Origin: a virus
Virus record (IMG/VR): IMGVR_UViG_3300010938_000092
Span: 1 to 35,055 of that record
Length of the DNA stretch: 35,055 nucleotides
Strand: one strand, 5' to 3'
The notes under the pieces are model-generated. The model made no database searches. It was not told where the DNA came from and saw nothing but the letters and a program-made list of their open reading frames with translations. This document shows, piece by piece, positions 16,855 to 35,055 of the stretch (position 1 is its first letter; each line of letters opens with the position of its first letter). The position numbers and the translations under genes were made by a program.

Positions 16855-17490
16855 ATGCCAACACTTACTTTTGGACAAGAACTAAATTTTGGTAACGAAA
16901 ATGAAATTGTGAGATTAAAGTCTAAGGGAGATAAAATTCAATTCCGCCTTGCTGGTAATGGATACTACGAGGGCGTGCATTTTGTAAAAGATGAGAAGGG
17001 TGCTACTAACATTACCTATTGTCCACGCATTATGCAGACTGGGGAGTGCGAGTTGTGCAAGAAATTTTTTGAGGAGACAAAGAAAGCTAAGTTGATTGAA
17101 GACGAAGCAAAAAGGAACAAGGCATTAAAAGCTGCTAAAGATAGTTATGGTGTATCTATTAAGTTTTACTACCCAATTTTAGATAGAGGAACAGGCAAGG
17201 CTAAAATCTTGCAGACAACATTATCAGTCCGAAAAAAGATAGAGGCTCTGGTTGTAGCTGGTATAGATGTTCTTGCGTCTGAGTTTGAGATCGGAAGAAC
17301 CGAACAGCCTGGCTCTGATTATTATCAGCTTATCAGGGTTGACTCGTCTGAAGTAAAAAAGTTAACCGAAGAAGAGAATAAGGAGTTGGAACGAGCTAGG
17401 GAATTTGATTTAGAAAAAATTTTAAACAGGGAAACTAAAAAAAGTGATTTAGATTTAGAAGATATAAAAGACATCTTTGAAGAAAAATGA
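16855..17490 (+). CDS. Single-stranded DNA-binding protein, gp32-like
   Basis: A protein of 211 residues. A zinc-binding set H42, C56, C65, C68 (HFVKDEKG, then YCPRIMQTGECELC) lies in an OB-fold-like beta region, as in T4 gp32-type proteins. The C-terminal tail is acidic and ends DLDLEDIKDIFEEK, the partner-docking tail usual in these proteins. It coats single-stranded DNA during replication and recombination. AGAAAGGA upstream provides an SD sequence, in contrast to its leaderless operon start. No phage polymerase or helicase is seen for it to work with, so host proteins are the likely partners. Confidence 0.65.
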   Translation: MPTLTFGQELNFGNENEIVRLKSKGDKIQFRLAGNGYYEGVHFVKDEKGATNITYCPRIMQTGECELCKKFFEETKKAKLIEDEAKRNKALKAAKDSYGVSIKFYYPILDRGTGKAKILQTTLSVRKKIEALVVAGIDVLASEFEIGRTEQPGSDYYQLIRVDSSEVKKLTEEENKELERAREFDLEKILNRETKKSDLDLEDIKDIFEEK

Positions 17491-17553: not shown

Positions 17554-17892
17554 ATGAAAAACATAATCAAAAAAATCAAATTACTTTATATTTATCTGAA
17601 AAACAGGAAAGAGATAAGAGACCTTTATGGTTATACCCTTAAGCATTATGGTGGTAATGAAGAAGCTGATTGGCTTTATATGACTGAATGGTGGCTAAGG
17701 GTATTTTATGGGAATAATACAATGAAAAAACAAAATAAAACAGCAACAGAAGTAATGCTTCAAGAAGAAGTCATCTATCTGGCTAAAATGAATTATTTAT
17801 TGGCTAAAGCACTTTTAACTGGAAAGATTAATAGCAATATAGTTCGTTGGGCAGAAGAGATTGTTGCTCTTTACAAGAAAACTTTAGAATAA
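17554..17892 (+). CDS. Hypothetical protein containing an internal MKKQNK cassette
   Basis: A protein of 112 residues. Residues 1-56 are basic then aromatic (IKLLYIYLKNRKEIRDLYGY, then ADWLYMTEWWLRVFYGN). At residue 57 the exact 18-base start cassette (17722-17739, MKKQNK) appears in frame, followed by a helical region (EVMLQEEVIYLAKMNYLLAK). Either the gene is a fusion of two small genes joined at the cassette or a second protein of 56 residues starts at 17722. A purine-rich GAGGAG lies two bases before the first ATG, closer than usual. No family recognised. Confidence 0.4.
   Translation: MKNIIKKIKLLYIYLKNRKEIRDLYGYTLKHYGGNEEADWLYMTEWWLRVFYGNNTMKKQNKTATEVMLQEEVIYLAKMNYLLAKALLTGKINSNIVRWAEEIVALYKKTLE
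17722..17739 (+). repeat. MKKQNK start-cassette repeat, copy 1
   Basis: ATGAAAAAACAAAATAAA, exact. Identical copies lie at 17895-17912, 19162-19179, 19425-19442 and 19700-19717. One-base variants occur at 18825-18842 (+) and 22784-22801 (minus strand, AAC for AAT). Looser forms are at 19012, 20110, 22478 (minus) and 33839. Confidence 0.85.
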
Positions 17893-17894
17893 AA

Positions 17895-18200
17895 ATGAAA
17901 AAACAAAATAAAGATTGGGAAGAAGATATAAAAATTTTAGGAATGATGAGATTAGATGATGATAATTTTAGGTTATACGAAACTAAAAAGTTAATAAAAT
18001 TTGTTGGGGCTTTAATTAAGGAAAAAGAAAAAGGAATAAAAATATCTCTTTTTAACAGTCTTATCAACTGGGCTAAAAAAGAGAGGCAAGATTATTTATG
18101 GGTTGGCGAAAAGGGATGTGATATGAGTTATGCATATAATCTAGCTTTAGAAGAACTTATTATGTATCTTAAAAAGAAACTAAAGGAGACAAAAAAATGA
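17895..18200 (+). CDS. Hypothetical protein with MKKQNK start
   Basis: A protein of 101 residues. The start is placed at the cassette ATG (17895), two bases after the previous stop, rather than the in-frame upstream codon at 17847. It is helical and basic (FRLYETKKLIKFVGALIKEK, then AYNLALEELIMYLKKKLKET). No motif recognised. It overlaps the next gene by four bases; AAAGGAGA in its last codons forms that gene's SD sequence. Confidence 0.45.
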   Translation: MKKQNKDWEEDIKILGMMRLDDDNFRLYETKKLIKFVGALIKEKEKGIKISLFNSLINWAKKERQDYLWVGEKGCDMSYAYNLALEELIMYLKKKLKETKK

Positions 18201-18448
18201 AAATTACAAAAGTAAAAATATATAAAGAATTCAAAAGAGGATTACCAAACTACTCTAATATCACTGTAGGTATGGGTCTGGAGTTTGATGTAGAGGAAGG
18301 AGAAAAACCAGACTACGATACAGCTTGGGACATTGTTAACCAGCAATTGACTGCCCAGTCTGATAATCTTGACCCCTCTTGGATTAACAGTTCTGAGACT
18401 AAAGAAGCTTACAAGTTAACAATTAAAGTTCCTAAAAACGAAATATGA
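18197..18448 (+). CDS. Hypothetical small phage protein
   Basis: A protein of 83 residues. ITVGMGLEFDVEEGEKPDYD followed by TAWDIVNQQL forms a beta-strand pair then a helix, a layout common in small phage accessory proteins whose role is unknown. An SD sequence (AAAGGAG) precedes the ATG. The C-terminus is a beta strand (YKLTIKVPKNEI). It is coupled to both neighbours by four-base overlaps. Confidence 0.45.
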   Translation: MKITKVKIYKEFKRGLPNYSNITVGMGLEFDVEEGEKPDYDTAWDIVNQQLTAQSDNLDPSWINSSETKEAYKLTIKVPKNEI

Positions 18449-18762
18449 TAATCAAAATTAGAATACCAAAAAACAAGAATGATAAATGGAGAGTAAGCTT
18501 TAGGGGTCGTCGTATTAGAAGAAGAACGGCACTGCCAATTTTTAATGCAATTACCCATTTCCTCCAGCTTCAGAAAATGAAAGAAAAAGTGGGGATTGGG
18601 GTTGAGGAATACATTGATGGGGGTTGGAAATTAGTTAATAAATCTGTAGCCTCAAAAGACAAAGATTATTTATTTTATATAACTGCTTTATTTTTAGAAG
18701 ATTATTTACCCAAATCAACTGTTAGAAAAGCAAGTGGGGTTTGGGAAAAGAAATACTTGTAA
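18445..18762 (+). CDS. Hypothetical protein, possible paralogue of the 19943 gene
   Basis: A protein of 105 residues with a very basic N-terminus (KWRVSFRGRRIRRRTALPIF). The middle (VEEYIDGGWKLVNKSVASKD, then DYLFYITALFLEDYL) follows the same order as the 56-residue protein at 19943 (IEERVEGGWSIIYSDKW... then a helix ending FDFL), which suggests a shared domain. Function unknown; a nucleic-acid-binding accessory is possible given the charge. Confidence 0.4.
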   Translation: MIIKIRIPKNKNDKWRVSFRGRRIRRRTALPIFNAITHFLQLQKMKEKVGIGVEEYIDGGWKLVNKSVASKDKDYLFYITALFLEDYLPKSTVRKASGVWEKKYL

Positions 18763-18779
18763 AAATAAAAATAAAAATT

Positions 18780-18799
18780 CCCCGCTACAAAGAGCGGGG
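18780..18799 (-). terminator. GC-rich hairpin, terminator-like on the minus strand
   Basis: CCCCGCT (18780-18786) pairs perfectly with AGCGGGG (18793-18799), loop of six. Read on the minus strand the stem is followed by AATTTTTATTTTTATTTTT, a good intrinsic-terminator tail. On the plus strand no U-run follows. It may stop leftward read-through, or act as a hairpin before the MTKQNK start at 18825. Confidence 0.45.
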
Positions 18800-18824
18800 C
18801 GTGATTAAAGGTATTATACCAAAA

Positions 18825-19028
18825 ATGACAAAACAAAATAAAGAAAAAAATAGGAAATTACAAAGACAAATTATTAAAATTCTAAATGATAATGAGTATT
18901 ACACACCTGAAATGATAATAGAGGAGGTAAAACCTTTCTTTTGGAGGATGTCCCGTCGCTGGGTTAAAGACAAGGCTGAAAGAATAGTAGATTTAATTGT
19001 TGATGTCCAAAATGAAAAAAACAAATAA
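18825..19028 (+). CDS. Hypothetical winged-helix-like protein with MTKQNK start
   Basis: A protein of 67 residues from the cassette-type ATG at 18825. A longer frame from 18741 would read through the GC hairpin and is less likely. LQRQIIKILNDNEYYTPEMI followed by IEEVKPFFWRMSRRWVKDKA is a helix, turn and helix pattern reminiscent of small winged-helix DNA-binding proteins. The C-terminal codons overlap the next start by 17 bases. Family not confirmed. Confidence 0.4.
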   Translation: MTKQNKEKNRKLQRQIIKILNDNEYYTPEMIIEEVKPFFWRMSRRWVKDKAERIVDLIVDVQNEKNK

Positions 19029-19428
19029 AATTAAAGAAGTAAACATAAGGACTACTTATTATTTTGATAAAAAGAGAGGTGATTTAATTGAACTAAAAGA
19101 GGAGTGGCAGGATTTATTTGGAAATTGGCACAAAATAGTTGATGAAAGGTTAAGCAAAAAAATGAAAAAACAAAATAAAATAGATTTTGACAAAAAAAGT
19201 CCGCTTCAAAGCTACGCTTATGAGTGGCTAAAAAGTCGTGGATTGTTTGATGAAGATGCTGATTATGGTGGAATGTTAGGAGATGCAATTTTGGAATTGA
19301 TTAAAGTATTCTCAAGGCAAGGGCATTCTGGTTTCTCGGCTGGGCTAACTAAAGAAATGTTTTATCGGCTGTTATCTGATTTTGAAAGTGGAGCAGATGC
19401 TGATTATAGAAAGCCAAAATCAAAATGA
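19012..19428 (+). CDS. Hypothetical protein, apparent fusion at an internal MKKQNK cassette
   Basis: A protein of 138 residues from MKKTNK at 19012. Residues 1-50 (TTYYFDKKRGDLIELKEEWQ, then DLFGNWHKIV) form one small domain. Residue 51 begins an exact MKKQNK cassette (19162), followed by a different helical domain (SPLQSYAYEWLKSRGLFDED, then ELIKVFSRQGHSGFSAGLTK). The second part may also be made alone as an 88-residue protein. Two small genes joined in frame at the cassette is the simplest reading. No function recognised. Confidence 0.4.
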   Translation: MKKTNKIKEVNIRTTYYFDKKRGDLIELKEEWQDLFGNWHKIVDERLSKKMKKQNKIDFDKKSPLQSYAYEWLKSRGLFDEDADYGGMLGDAILELIKVFSRQGHSGFSAGLTKEMFYRLLSDFESGADADYRKPKSK

Positions 19429-19454
19429 AAAAACAAAATAAAAAGAATTTGTAG
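19425..19454 (+). other. Orphan MKKQNK cassette with a nine-codon frame
   Basis: An exact cassette copy overlaps the previous stop (ATGA) but opens only nine codons (MKKQNKKNL) before TAG. It looks like a start cassette whose gene has been lost or replaced; the promoter of the structured RNA follows 16 bases later. Expression of such a peptide is uncertain. Confidence 0.4.
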
Positions 19455-19469
19455 AAAGTGTTTACTGAC

Positions 19470-19478
19470 TGTTATACT
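19470..19478 (+). promoter_or_regulatory. Extended -10 promoter for the structured RNA
   Basis: TGT directly precedes TATACT (19473-19478), an extended -10 element; the -35 region is weak (TTGTAG, 19449-19454). The predicted +1, 19485, is exactly the first base of the outer stem of the RNA described next. Confidence 0.5.
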
Positions 19479-19484
19479 AATATG

Positions 19485-19690
19485 GTGGAGCTACTGGGTT
19501 ACGTATCCTGCGACTAATGTCGCACGGGGCATTGACCCAGAGCCCAGAGCTCCACTAAGACAAAAAGGGGGTGCCAAATTATATTGAAATTAACGAGCTG
19601 TGGTTAATTTTAATATAAAATAAAGAGTATCGTATCTGCGTTAATCTCTTGGTTAAATGTTCCGAAGACCGATTAAGGAACAGCCCCCAA
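19485..19690 (+). ncRNA. Candidate structured RNA or 5' leader (multi-stem)
   Basis: The 245-base gap has no gene. From the predicted +1: an outer 8-bp stem GTGGAGCT/AGCTCCAC (19485-19492 with 19548-19555), continued after one bulged A by CTGGG/CCCAG (19494-19498 with 19543-19547), enclosing a perfect TGCGAC/GTCGCA hairpin (19509-19514 with 19519-19524). Next is a 15-bp AU hairpin (19579-19593 with 19604-19618, one G-U). Then TGTTCC/GGAACA (19658-19663 with 19677-19682). GGGGGT (19567-19572) can pair with GCCCCC (19683-19688) to close both. It is not a tRNA: no D-arm or T-arm consensus. It may be a separate RNA or a leader of the gene at 19700. Confidence 0.5.
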
Positions 19691-19699
19691 AATAACAAA

Positions 19700-19894
19700 A
19701 TGAAAAAACAAAATAAAACGATTTACAAAAATAAGATTTTAACTTTTAAAAAAATAGAGGCTAATTCAAAGGAAGAGATAAAAATAACGGGGAAATGTAA
19801 AAGATATTATCGTCGTGGATGGTATAAAGTTTGGACACTTGAAACCCCAAATGGGGTGGTGCGGGTTACAAATGCCGATTGGGATTTGTTTTAA
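19700..19894 (+). CDS. Hypothetical basic protein with MKKQNK start
   Basis: A protein of 64 residues that starts at an exact cassette copy, right after the structured stretch. The body is basic and beta-rich (ITGKCKRYYRRGWYKVWTLE, then TPNGVVRVTNADWDLF) and could be a small SH3-like or nucleic-acid-binding barrel. An in-frame upstream codon at 19649 lies inside the hairpin region and is unlikely as a start. Function unknown. Confidence 0.45.
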   Translation: MKKQNKTIYKNKILTFKKIEANSKEEIKITGKCKRYYRRGWYKVWTLETPNGVVRVTNADWDLF

Positions 19895-19942: not shown

Positions 19943-20113
19943 ATGAAGATAAAGATTGAGGAACGTGTAGAAGGGGGTTGGTCTATTATCTATTCAGATA
20001 AGTGGGTAAAGAAAACAGAATATATTGCTAAGACCAAAGAAGAATTGATCTATGAAGTGAATAGGTTGATATTTGATTTTTTATCTGTTGAGCGTGTTCC
20101 CGAAATAAAATGA
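19943..20113 (+). CDS. Hypothetical protein with a classic ribosome-binding site
   Basis: A protein of 56 residues. The start is fixed by AAAGGAGGTGAGAAAA just before the ATG, a perfect SD sequence unlike most plus-strand genes here. IEERVEGGWSIIYSDKW is a beta hairpin, followed by a helix (EELIYEVNRLIFDFL). The middle resembles part of the protein at 18445. The stop overlaps the next start (ATGA). Function unknown. Confidence 0.5.
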   Translation: MKIKIEERVEGGWSIIYSDKWVKKTEYIAKTKEELIYEVNRLIFDFLSVERVPEIK

Positions 20114-20211
20114 CAAAACCAAATAAAATCTTACTAGCTTTATGGCTTGACGCCCTTGCTCTATCCTTTTTATTAGGAAGGATGGCGGGGGTTGTTTGGT
20201 ATAATAAATAG
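20110..20211 (+). CDS. Small membrane peptide
   Basis: A protein of 33 residues. MTKPNK (a relaxed form of the MKKQNK cassette) is followed by one hydrophobic helix (ILLALWLDALALSFLLGRMA) and a short tail. It is coupled to the preceding gene. The promoter of the glycosyltransferase lies over its last codons. A membrane-acting accessory peptide is plausible; function unknown. Confidence 0.4.
   Translation: MTKPNKILLALWLDALALSFLLGRMAGVVWYNK
20197..20205 (+). promoter_or_regulatory. Extended -10 promoter for the glycosyltransferase gene
   Basis: TGG directly followed by TATAAT (20200-20205) is an extended -10 element. The predicted +1 is about 20212, nine bases before the ATG at 20221. No clear -35 and no SD sequence. 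Confidence 0.45.
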
Positions 20212-20220
20212 TCTTAAAAT

Positions 20221-21411
20221 ATGAGAATTTTATTTTGGGGTGATAGCCCTGCGGTAGCTACAGGATTGGGTAATGTCTCAAAGAATGTTTGTGATGTTCT
20301 TTCTAAAGAACACGATATAACAGTTATTGGGGTTAATGATAGAGGAGGTTATAAAGACCCTAAGCTTTATCCATATCCGATTTATCCTGCTATCTACAAT
20401 AACTATACCGATGTTTGGGGTGCAGTAAGATTATTCAACGCCTTAAATAAACAAGACCCAGAAATTCCTAAACAGGATTTTGATATGCTATTTGTGAACC
20501 TTGACTTTTTTCTGTTTAATGAGATAACTATTAGCGGTAAACCACTCTTTGACTTAATTGAAAATGTTAAGATTAAGAAAGTTTTATACACTCCGATTGA
20601 TAATGAAACTTTCTATCCGCACTGGCTTTTAACTTTTAAATTTTTTGATTTGATTATTGTTCCTTCAGAATGGGCCAAAGAGGTCTTAGTGAAAGCATTA
20701 CCAGAATTGAAAGATAGGGTTGAGGTCGTTTATTATCCTCTTGATACCAATAATTTCTTTAAGCAGAAGCCAAAAGACAAACCAAAAAATTCTTTTATTA
20801 TTGGCTATGTGGGCAGAAACCAATGGAGAAAAGCACTAGATAAACTAGTTTTTGCTTTTGTAAAATTTAAGGAAAGGCATCCCAATTCCTTCTTGTATAT
20901 TCACTCTAACCCAGAAGCTACCAGTGATTATGGTTGGAATTTTTGTGATTTGCTTTCTCACTTTAATCTATATTTAGGTCGTGATTATTTTTACCCAGTT
21001 GGTGTAAACGAGAACAAAGGAATTGAAAGAAAATCAATGAGAGACATTTACAATTATATGGATGTTTTCTTTTCTGCTTCAACTGGTGAAGGCTTTGGAT
21101 TACCATATGCTGAAGCCTCGTTGTGTGAAGTGCCTGTTATCATTCCAGATAATACGGTTGCTAAAGAATTTCCGCTGATTACTTACTGCTCTTTACCCCA
21201 GCCCCATAGCTTTGGCTTTATTGATTATAATAGAGTCCGCCATTTACCTGATATTGAAGATGGACTTAAAAGATTAGAATGGGTATATAATCACCGACAA
21301 GAGGCTAAAGAAAAAGCCAAACAGGCAAGAAAATTTTTCCTTCAGTTTGATAAAGAAAAACAAGGAAAACTTATTCACGATTTGATAACCACATTAAAAA
21401 ATAAACAATAA
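20221..21411 (+). CDS. Glycosyltransferase, GT-B fold, GT4-like
   Basis: A protein of 396 residues. The N-terminal Rossmann half begins MRILFWGDSPAVATGLGNVS, a GT-B acceptor-side glycine loop. The C-terminal donor half starts IIGYVGRNQWRKALDKLVFA. The donor-site motif TGEGFGLPYAEAS carries the E-x7-E pair (E290, E298) of retaining GT4-type enzymes. It would transfer a sugar from a nucleotide-sugar donor. The acceptor is unknown: host surface glycan (superinfection exclusion), phage DNA bases or virion protein are possible. It has its own promoter and ends the rightward accessory block; leftward genes follow. No sugar-nucleotide or modified-base synthesis gene is seen nearby. Confidence 0.7.
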   Translation: MRILFWGDSPAVATGLGNVSKNVCDVLSKEHDITVIGVNDRGGYKDPKLYPYPIYPAIYNNYTDVWGAVRLFNALNKQDPEIPKQDFDMLFVNLDFFLFNEITISGKPLFDLIENVKIKKVLYTPIDNETFYPHWLLTFKFFDLIIVPSEWAKEVLVKALPELKDRVEVVYYPLDTNNFFKQKPKDKPKNSFIIGYVGRNQWRKALDKLVFAFVKFKERHPNSFLYIHSNPEATSDYGWNFCDLLSHFNLYLGRDYFYPVGVNENKGIERKSMRDIYNYMDVFFSASTGEGFGLPYAEASLCEVPVIIPDNTVAKEFPLITYCSLPQPHSFGFIDYNRVRHLPDIEDGLKRLEWVYNHRQEAKEKAKQARKFFLQFDKEKQGKLIHDLITTLKNKQ

Positions 21412-22489: not shown

Positions 22490-22801
22490 CTAAATCTTAA
22501 TCTTTCCTGCCTCTTCTTGGGGTGCTTCTATAATTTTGCCTGTCAATTTATCAATTTTTCCTCCTCTATTGAGAGCATTTAACCAATCCTCTGCCTCTTT
22601 GAGAGTGTCAAACTCTTGCCATTTTCCGTATCCCAATTCAACTGCTGTATATTTTCCTTTGCTTCTTGATTGTATTTCTAAACTTTTATCTCCTATTTTT
22701 CCTGAAAAATAAACTTCAGCCGTCCAATTTTTACCAATCGATTGACTTGGTAATTTAATTGTTCCTGCTAGTTGTTTTGGCGTTTTGTTTTGTTTTTTCA
22801 T
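22490..22801 (-). CDS. Hypothetical protein with MKKQNK start (minus strand)
   Basis: A protein of 103 residues. The start carries the cassette with one silent change (AAC for AAT), showing that the cassette occurs on both strands. The body is beta-rich (NWTAEVYFSGKIGDKSLEIQ, then YTAVELGYGKWQEFDTLKEA), ending in a lysine- and glutamate-rich tail. A very A-rich stretch, not an SD sequence, precedes it. Function unknown. Confidence 0.45.
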   Translation of the reverse strand: MKKQNKTPKQLAGTIKLPSQSIGKNWTAEVYFSGKIGDKSLEIQSRSKGKYTAVELGYGKWQEFDTLKEAEDWLNALNRGGKIDKLTGKIIEAPQEEAGKIKI

Positions 22802-28205: not shown

Positions 28206-28324
28206 TTGACTTTGAGAAAATGCAACCAGTTTTAAAGAAAAAAATTGTAAAGAAACCTAGAAGGAAAAAGGTTTATAACATTGGTTTTGATTATAAGTCT
28301 ATTCTTAAAACCAAGACAATATGA
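28202..28324 (+). CDS. Small basic peptide
   Basis: A protein of 40 residues, very basic (LKKKIVKKPRRKKVYNIGFD). It is linked to both neighbours by four-base ATGA overlaps, so it is part of a tightly coupled run of three genes between portal and scaffold. It could bind DNA or the acidic scaffold; this is speculative. Confidence 0.45.
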   Translation: MIDFEKMQPVLKKKIVKKPRRKKVYNIGFDYKSILKTKTI

Positions 28325-29640
28325 GAACATTTCTTTTGGTAAATATTTCTGGGGATTTTCTCTCTATTGCTCAAAGATTAAAAGAGGAAGGAGAGAAAAT
28401 TCTGTTTTGGCGTTCTGGAAAACCTTTAAAAGGTGGTTCGGATGTTGGTAAGGGAATTATTGATGAAGATGAATTTGTAGAAGATTACTATGAAGTCTTA
28501 AAAAAGGTCCCCAAAAATGATTTGTATATATTAGTTGATGATAATTGTCGTGGAGATGAATTTGATTTTATTAGAAGAGCGGGATACAAAGTTATTGGAG
28601 CTAGTGGTTTTGGTGACAAAATAGAATATGATAGGACTTATGGAACTGAGTTAATGGAAAAGATTGGTTTACCAACTCCAAAAACTTTTTCTTTTGATAA
28701 TATAGAAGAGGCAATAAGACTAGCATATTCTATTGGAAAAAAGAACCCAGAACAGAGATTGGTTTTTAAACCACACGGAGAGGAATTTGCTGGTTCGGCT
28801 AGGACTTATACTGCCAAAAATATGAATGATTTAATAGATTATCTTGAATGGACCCAAGACGACATTAAAAGAAATAGATATGAAATAGAGAGATTTGAAT
28901 TACAAGAATTTATAGATGGCTACGAAGTTGACTTTTCTGCCTACTTTAATGGTGTTGATTTCATGCCTGGCTCTGTTGCTATTGATATAGAAGAGAAAAA
29001 ATCTGGTGATGGTAATAAAGGTCAAGCAACTGGTTGCATGGGAAATGTTATTCTTTTTGTCGAAAAATCAAGATATTTTGATAAGTATATTAGAAGATTA
29101 AGGAAGCTACTTCAATCTGTTGGATATGTCGGACAGATAAGTATCAATAATATATTTGCCAAAAAAGATGGTATGCCGTATGGATTAGAATTCACACCAA
29201 GGTTTGGGTGGGACGCTCAATTAACAGAATGTTCAATTTTTAAAGAGGCAGGATTAAAATTAGCTGATTTTTATGCAGCAATTGCCGACAAGAAAGATTT
29301 TCCCTTTTCACACGACTTAGTTGGTTGTGGAGTAAGAGTTTATTGTGAAACGCCTGGTGTTCCGAAAGATGAAATCATTGGTAGAAGATTTGGTTTTGAT
29401 AAAGAAATAGAAAATAATTTGTGGTTTTATTCAGTATCAAAGGAAAAGGATAATTATATAGTTGAAGGAAATGAAGTATTGGTTGCAAACGCCGTTGATA
29501 AAAAACTTCAGAAAGCAATAGATAAAGTTTACAATGATATTCTACAAAAAGTTTATATATCAGATATTTATTACAGAATGGAGATTGGTAAGAGAGCGAA
29601 AGAGGCATTAAAGTTTTTGCTTGACAATAAATGGATTTAA
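28321..29640 (+). CDS. ATP-grasp ligase, PurD (GARS)-like
   Basis: A protein of 439 residues. The layout follows phosphoribosylamine-glycine ligase and related ATP-grasp enzymes: a Rossmann-like N-domain (MRTFLLVNISGDFLSIAQRL), a DRTYGTELMEKIGLPTPKTF segment comparable to the K-D-F-M-x-x-x-x-I-P-T-A region of PurD, the ATP-lid RLVFKPHGEEFAGSARTY, an ELQEFIDGYEVDFSAYFNG strand, and GLEFTPRFGWDAQ in place of the L-E-x-N-x-R-F-G-D-P-E-x-Q metal/substrate motif. The usual Asn is Thr and the Asp-Pro is Trp-Asp, so substrate use has probably changed. No other purine genes are present. It lies between portal and scaffold, coupled to the small gene before it. A peptide- or amide-forming modification of a virion or host component is possible. 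Confidence 0.65.
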   Translation: MRTFLLVNISGDFLSIAQRLKEEGEKILFWRSGKPLKGGSDVGKGIIDEDEFVEDYYEVLKKVPKNDLYILVDDNCRGDEFDFIRRAGYKVIGASGFGDKIEYDRTYGTELMEKIGLPTPKTFSFDNIEEAIRLAYSIGKKNPEQRLVFKPHGEEFAGSARTYTAKNMNDLIDYLEWTQDDIKRNRYEIERFELQEFIDGYEVDFSAYFNGVDFMPGSVAIDIEEKKSGDGNKGQATGCMGNVILFVEKSRYFDKYIRRLRKLLQSVGYVGQISINNIFAKKDGMPYGLEFTPRFGWDAQLTECSIFKEAGLKLADFYAAIADKKDFPFSHDLVGCGVRVYCETPGVPKDEIIGRRFGFDKEIENNLWFYSVSKEKDNYIVEGNEVLVANAVDKKLQKAIDKVYNDILQKVYISDIYYRMEIGKRAKEALKFLLDNKWI

Positions 29641-34736: not shown

Positions 34737-35055
34737 ATGGCAGGCTCAATATATTTATCTAAAGAAGACGGTTATCACATACTCCAAGAGGATGGTTCTC
34801 TAATTATTTTAGATGGAAGATTGGATATTTCGTTGTCAGATTATGAAATAATTACCGACCCATACAATAGTAATCTTCCTTATAATGAACAGAGAACATA
34901 TAATGAGGATAGTGGAGAAAGTGTTTTAGTTCGATATCCAATAACTATTGGAGTTTCTGATTATAATCTAATAGTTGACCCATATAATAGTAATTTACCA
35001 TATAATGAACAGAGAACATATAATGAGGATAGTGGAGAAAGTGTTTTAGTTCGAT
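34737..35055 (+). CDS. Repeat-rich tail fibre protein, N-terminal part (runs off the window)
   Basis: Open from the ATG at 34737 to the window end, 106 complete codons. After a short head (SIYLSKEDGYHILQEDGSLI) come two 40-residue repeats (DPYNSNLPYNEQRTYNEDSG, then ESVLVRYPITIGVSDY), nearly identical at DNA level. The start of the window continues the same repeat in the same frame, so this is most likely the 5' part of the gene ending at 992. It probably encodes an elongated fibre. The number of repeats may be underestimated if assembly collapsed them. Confidence 0.6.
   Translation, partial: MAGSIYLSKEDGYHILQEDGSLIILDGRLDISLSDYEIITDPYNSNLPYNEQRTYNEDSGESVLVRYPITIGVSDYNLIVDPYNSNLPYNEQRTYNEDSGESVLVR
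34857..35055 (+). repeat. 120-base tandem repeat in the fibre gene, window edge
   Basis: The GACCCATA-type unit starts at 34857 and again at 34977, period 120 bases. The run TTATAATGAACAGAGAAC and what follows is identical in both. Bases 34993-35027 match bases 1-35 of the window exactly, after which the copies diverge. Confidence 0.8.

Follow-up and report, generated by a model that had tools for sequence, protein, structure and literature searches.

Why should one short coding sequence open a series of unrelated small genes in a single virus? The question is raised by the window, meaning the whole stretch of DNA analysed (35,055 nucleotides, IMGVR_UViG_3300010938_000092), which is a complete IMG/VR virus record and not a fragment of one. 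A sequence-only reading had pointed to an 18-base start, ATGAAAAAACAAAATAAA, coding for MKKQNK, and had offered two explanations: a recombination seam at which small genes are swapped, or a selected initiation enhancer and N-terminal tag. The observation is real and non-random, and comparison of related contigs indicates a recombination seam. The repeat lies between small accessory genes, probably as a connector, and homologous blocks of relatives begin or end there.

Copies of the repeat in the window

The five exact copies reported within 2 kb on the plus strand (17722, 17895, 19162, 19425, and 19700) were all recovered, as were the one-mismatch copies at 18825 (plus strand) and 22784-22801 (minus strand). 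Two extra copies with two mismatches each, at 19012 and 20110 (plus strand), had been overlooked; both are at gene starts. The density in the window reaches 8 copies in 2.4 kb. The expected number of copies with at most two mismatches is 0.08 per shuffled window, and none of 100 shuffles reached 9. The copies are as follows.

17722-17739, plus strand: cassette copy 1, exact; in frame inside ORF 17554-17892 (fusion)
17895-17912, plus strand: cassette copy 2, exact; starts a 101-aa gene; the upstream gene stops 5 nt earlier
18825-18842, plus strand: cassette copy 3, 1 mismatch, MTKQNK; starts a 67-aa gene
19012-19029, plus strand: cassette copy 4, 2 mismatches, MKKTNK; the upstream gene terminates inside it as ..NEKNK (stop at +14)
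19162-19179, plus strand: cassette copy 5, exact; begins the Tad3-like module; the frame opened at 19012 reads through it
19425-19442, plus strand: cassette copy 6, exact; orphan 9-aa ORF; the upstream gene stops at its TGA; structured non-coding DNA follows
19700-19717, plus strand: cassette copy 7, exact; start of a 64-aa gene
20110-20127, plus strand: cassette copy 8, 2 mismatches, MTKPNK; the upstream gene stops at its TGA
22784-22801, minus strand: cassette copy with 1 mismatch; starts the 103-aa gene 22490-22801

Two copies had been described as lying in frame inside longer genes and one as an orphan. These descriptions hold: 17722 is inside ORF 17554-17892, 19162 is inside ORF 19012-19428, and the orphan at 19425 reads MKKQNKKNL and then stops (9 aa). 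Simple duplication would have left homologous gene bodies. The bodies 3' of the cassette are mutually unrelated within the window, except that 19012 matches 19162 because the two ORFs are fused, the former containing the latter.

Distribution among related phages

An exact scan of viral contigs for the 18-mer matched at least 119 contigs. Among the matches listed, 116 stretches carry a single copy; protein similarity shows each of the three multi-copy stretches (L049, L071, and L096) to be related to the window. The same scan gave a further relative, L086 (G002), and the contig of L028 was tied in as relative G007 by an exonuclease search. Five relatives (G001, G002, G003, G004, and G007) were read at full length; single matches in unrelated phages, and also those in G005 and G006, were treated as ordinary A-rich starts. 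Each of the five has 3 to 9 copies on a single strand, in a single island 5' of the terminase genes. In the six related contigs, every copy with at most two mismatches lies in the one island on the plus strand, the minus-strand copy of the window being the sole exception. An 18-mer equally frequent away from start codons had been named as an argument against a special role; in these six contigs the copies are confined to the island and to gene junctions. The multi-copy cassette is common to the members of a small phage lineage, namely the window and five IMG/VR contigs, which together have about 37-41 sites.

Relatives sought in IMG/VR with the terminase and with the 16855-17490 protein gave none; an anchor-gene search found no additional relatives, and a local pattern search for closely spaced cassette pairs found no match. 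Among known phages, there was no DNA match to the window and no match to the 16855-17490 protein; at the protein level, only distant exonuclease and capsid matches were seen. In the host search, the exonuclease was without a match in the genome collection, and TerS had one match (43%) in an Omnitrophota MAG contig.

The phage genes of the window also include a glycosyltransferase and an ATP-grasp (GARS-like) gene (20221-21411 and 28321-29640). The peptide NLPYNEQRTYNEDSGES is repeated at both window ends (1-992 and 34737-35055). The record stops within a repeat, as its last 55 bp are also found at 34881.

Accessory genes of the island

The modules next to the copies in the window are listed below.

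17554-17892, plus strand: 112-aa fusion ORF holding copy 1
17895-18200, plus strand: 101-aa module gene, MKKQNKDWEED..
18825-19028, plus strand: 67-aa module gene, terminating inside copy 4
19012-19428, plus strand: 138-aa fusion ORF (copies 4 and 5), ending at the TGA of copy 6
19162-19428, plus strand: 88-aa homologue of Tad3, a type I Thoeris inhibitor (PF25185, 45.9 bits, cut-off 27)
19480-19560, plus strand: folding non-coding stretch 1 (z -5.9), in the slot after orphan copy 6
19565-19695, plus strand: folding non-coding stretch 2 (z -4.7), ending just before copy 7
19700-19894, plus strand: 64-aa module gene
20110-20211, plus strand: 33-aa module gene
22490-22801, minus strand: 103-aa gene begun by the minus-strand copy

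Within one phage, the bodies after the cassette belong to different families, and some families recur in other phages beside other neighbours. The cassette with a DWE/NWE start, as in the 17895-18200 gene, is also present in G002, G003, and G004. YopX genes with a cassette start were found in G001, G002, and G007, the G007 gene being assigned by similarity to the other two. The Tad3 homologue is a stand-alone gene in G001, whereas in the window it is fused in frame to the preceding small ORF. Its MKKQNK stretch looks like an addition, because a Rhizobium phage relative begins a few residues before the conserved part. Since one module is an anti-Thoeris homologue, its neighbours in the array are candidate counter-defence genes, and the repeat offers a handle for mining accessory modules.

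Some cassettes precede no obvious gene of their own. Behind the orphan at 19425, the slot probably holds a non-coding module, since two strong folds lie between this copy and the next cassette. Rfam gave no match for either folding stretch, and a 25-mer from 19480-19560 had no exact match in viral contigs. In G001, G002, and G003, the gene that follows an orphan cassette has an SD and an ATG of its own. A similar GC-rich hairpin was noted 5' of cassette 18825 (window 18768-18822) and of G001:35314 (L126 15264-15310); sites in relatives are given as contig and position.

Homology of related contigs at the repeat

The comparison took in every pair of cassettes for which a 100-nt flank is homologous, with ORF starts outside the islands as the control. 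In this test, of the kind that the sequence-only reading had proposed, gene content in the related phage contigs changes exactly at the cassette. The homology is one-sided and switches at the cassette in 29 of the 30 pairs; the only two-sided pair is a near-duplicate inside one contig. The control ORF starts gave 85 two-sided and 89 one-sided pairs, which differs from the cassettes with Fisher p = 4e-7, although the pairs are not independent, and one-sided homology is frequent at ordinary ORF starts too (89/174). A BLAST block ends at the cassette in both sequences in 12 of 41 cases; random placement gave a mean of 0.17 and a maximum of 4 in 5000 trials. Among the homology blocks inspected by eye, none crosses a cassette with at least 40 nt on each side.

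Single sites display the same switch. The window and G001 have the module of the Tad3 homologue in common, in a 292-bp block (84% identity) that runs from cassette to next cassette between unrelated flanks. G003:9441 is a hybrid, resembling G001:33442 upstream (182/200) and G001:34799 downstream (196/200, 98%). It looks like the expected product of recombination between the direct-repeat cassettes 33442 and 34799, or the reverse. Seven further sites likewise combine two different partners. A lysozyme-like gene (88-91%) lies upstream in common of G001:33442, G002:33555, and G003:9441, and three different modules lie downstream. G003:11266 and G007:16902 share 141/151 positions upstream and nothing downstream. 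The hairpin flank upstream of 18825 is shared with G001:35314, and their downstream sequences are unrelated.

The final 127 bp of G002 are an exact repeat of its own positions 893-1019, and divergence begins 4 nt before a cassette. Exact overlaps of 127 bp typically arise where a k-mer assembly branches, so two island versions likely coexisted in the G002 sample. The ends of this contig (L127/L128; 1-1019 and 33525-34930) seem to be alternative versions of the accessory island. Some junctions lie off the cassette, including the left joint of the alternative G002 versions and the block end at G001:35016.

Reading frames of the repeat and translation

Alignment of 37 copies showed a conserved core from about -3 to +18 relative to the start, with sharp edges. 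This core of about 21 bp is AAA-ATGAAAAAACAAAATAAA, and its non-A positions C10 and T15 are conserved nearly as well as the A's. The core AAAATGAAAAAACAAAATAAA contains no inverted repeat; it is asymmetric and A-rich, and has no palindromic core sites. Frame 0 is open and reads MKKQNK; nucleotides 2-4 are a TGA in frame +1; in frame +2, xEKTK is followed by a TAA at nucleotides 15-17 (TAA/TAG at +14). A module joined at the cassette gains a start, and the preceding gene is stopped in two of the three frames; in the remaining one it is read on into the module, which yields the fusions seen. The upstream gene ends inside the cassette at 20 of 36 sites (10 at the TGA, 10 at the TAA/TAG), and 2 of 36 are fused in frame; at the remainder it ends earlier or none is clear. 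In-frame joints are below the one third level (2/22, p = 0.009), as expected if fusions are usually harmful.

Translation without an SD had been suggested. This is a tendency only: an SD-like motif precedes 4 of the 24 cassette-started ORFs of at least 50 aa, compared with 51 of the 141 long ORFs that start otherwise (p = 0.065). The stop-start overlap makes translational coupling plausible. An initiation enhancer with an N-terminal tag is weakly disfavoured as the main cause, because several copies persist that open no long translated sequence and the coding copies have 14 amino-acid-changing versus 5 silent changes. All possible single changes number 40 versus 5; no strong peptide constraint is visible, and the counts are too few to decide on selection of a peptide tag.

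Selection on the translation start might still act without any recombination at the repeat. An A-rich, SD-poor start would be selected, the joins would be illegitimate, and only those with a good start would survive. An SD-like motif is indeed present at only 6 of 36 cassette starts, at 10 sites the upstream gene overlaps the start as ATGA, and the exact 18-mer begins ORFs in many unrelated phages (among the matches listed, 90 of 126 open an ORF of at least 40 aa). However, such selection does not predict the conserved C10 and T15, the exact length, and the sharp edges, nor homology that extends to the cassette edge in many pairs. Among 89 unrelated, A-rich phage loci chosen for holding the 18-mer, none has at least three near-identical ORF starts. 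Initiation selection alone accounts neither for the retained orphans, which are followed by a non-coding stretch or by genes that have an SD and a start of their own, nor for one exact start repeated in one lineage. We regard this explanation as unlikely.

A translational operator is less probable still. Here a RegA-like phage RNA-binding regulator would bind the AUG region and jointly control the accessory genes. The repeat spans the start codon of many genes on the same strand, and its conservation is at the nucleotide rather than the peptide level, both of which fit an operator. But no RegA-like protein was recognised among the genes scanned (part of the gene set), orphan copies have no obvious controlled gene, and an operator alone leaves the homology breaks at the repeat unexplained.

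Proposed mechanism

On the sequence evidence, the repeat of about 21 bp is probably a boundary sequence, itself coding, that supplies the homology for shuffling modules in the accessory island. The evidence for this seam is comparative: six contigs carry the array, and the cassette-site pairs are not independent. Whole modules would be swapped when the short repeats recombine homologously or anneal, through functions of the phage or the host. Within one genome, units between direct repeats could be gained or lost; between co-infecting relatives, whole modules could be exchanged. The A-rich start is probably also adequate for initiation, helped in part by its overlap with the stop of the upstream gene. 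A recombination seam readily accounts for the in-frame fusions and the orphan. Recombination-type genes are present: a NinG-like nuclease and an SbcD-type metallophosphoesterase exonuclease in the window, and an exonuclease of RecE/Cas4-like type in G002. Among the genes scanned, none was recognised as encoding a phage annealing protein.

A site-specific system, in which a recombinase inserts and excises modules with the repeat as attachment site as in integrons, would also produce an array of units with a single directional repeat, hybrid junctions, and a module conserved from cassette to next cassette. It is very improbable, given an asymmetric A-rich repeat without palindromic core sites, several junctions outside the repeat, and a scan of part of the gene set that recognised neither an integrase nor a site-specific recombinase. 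A bolder form of module shuffling is conceivable but doubtful: a universal 21-bp coding connector, by which the lineage trades anti-defence and accessory modules, including non-coding RNAs, through specialised, integron-like recombination. If true, such a plug-in system would do for phages what integrons do for bacteria. The shuffles and the relatives rule out both chance and the mere duplication of a single gene start in an AT-rich genome: the sequence is very A-rich and common as a single start in other phages, but the expected copy number is far below that observed, the bodies are unrelated, and among the matches listed it is multi-copy in the five related contigs and not in others.

Comparison with known systems

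Mosaic joints at gene boundaries have been explained by two models, targeted recombination at boundary sequences and random joining followed by selection (PMC3233612). In the boundary-sequence model, homologous recombination takes place at short conserved sequences between genes (PMC3233612). The present repeat is likewise a short conserved sequence between genes, and the homology of relatives switches at it. It differs in spanning the start codon, in coding the first six residues, and in ending the previous gene in two frames.

The SAS of cluster K mycobacteriophages (13 bp, GGGATAGGAGCCC) precedes the start by 3-7 bp and includes AGGAG; it is mostly found in intergenic gaps of more than 50 bp, some SAS hold the upstream stop codon, and its authors suggested a recombination role (PMC3203893). 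Both elements are short, directional, and repeated at starts of unrelated non-structural genes. However, the cassette core runs from -3 to +18 across the start, is coding, and has no SD core; the SAS consensus is absent from the cassette and from its 16-nt upstream consensus.

An integron cassette array has imperfect palindromic attC sites, which are absent here; the present repeat is asymmetric. In the ninR region of lambda, small accessory genes form an interlinked chain with ATGA overlaps. The island resembles it in its small accessory genes with stop-start overlaps, and a NinG-like gene is present here too. We know of no repeat of comparable length and exactness in ninR.

The T4-type PeSL (Arbiol 2010, Comeau 2014), as outlined in PMC4503421 and PMC3950731, is a cassette of a promoter and a stem-loop, proposed as a module shuffler; according to the same outlines, haloarchaeal HGTV-1 has motifs resembling PeSL that are thought to drive shuffling. 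Both PeSL and the present repeat are cassettes between small accessory genes with a proposed shuffling role. Set against the element so outlined, the present repeat is without a stem and without promoter-like content; of the sites inspected, just 18825 and G001:35314 have a hairpin in front of them.

The sequence-only reading had known of no such system. Its recombination seam agrees with the switches of gene content in relatives, but the claim of novelty was too strong, as similar ideas have been published. The principle is already known from boundary sequences, SAS, and PeSL. What appears new is a start-codon-spanning repeat with stops in both other frames, of which a partial literature search found no description. 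Between the two models of mosaic joints, this lineage offers an unusually clear case for boundary-sequence targeting, with an element that is defined, short, and testable.
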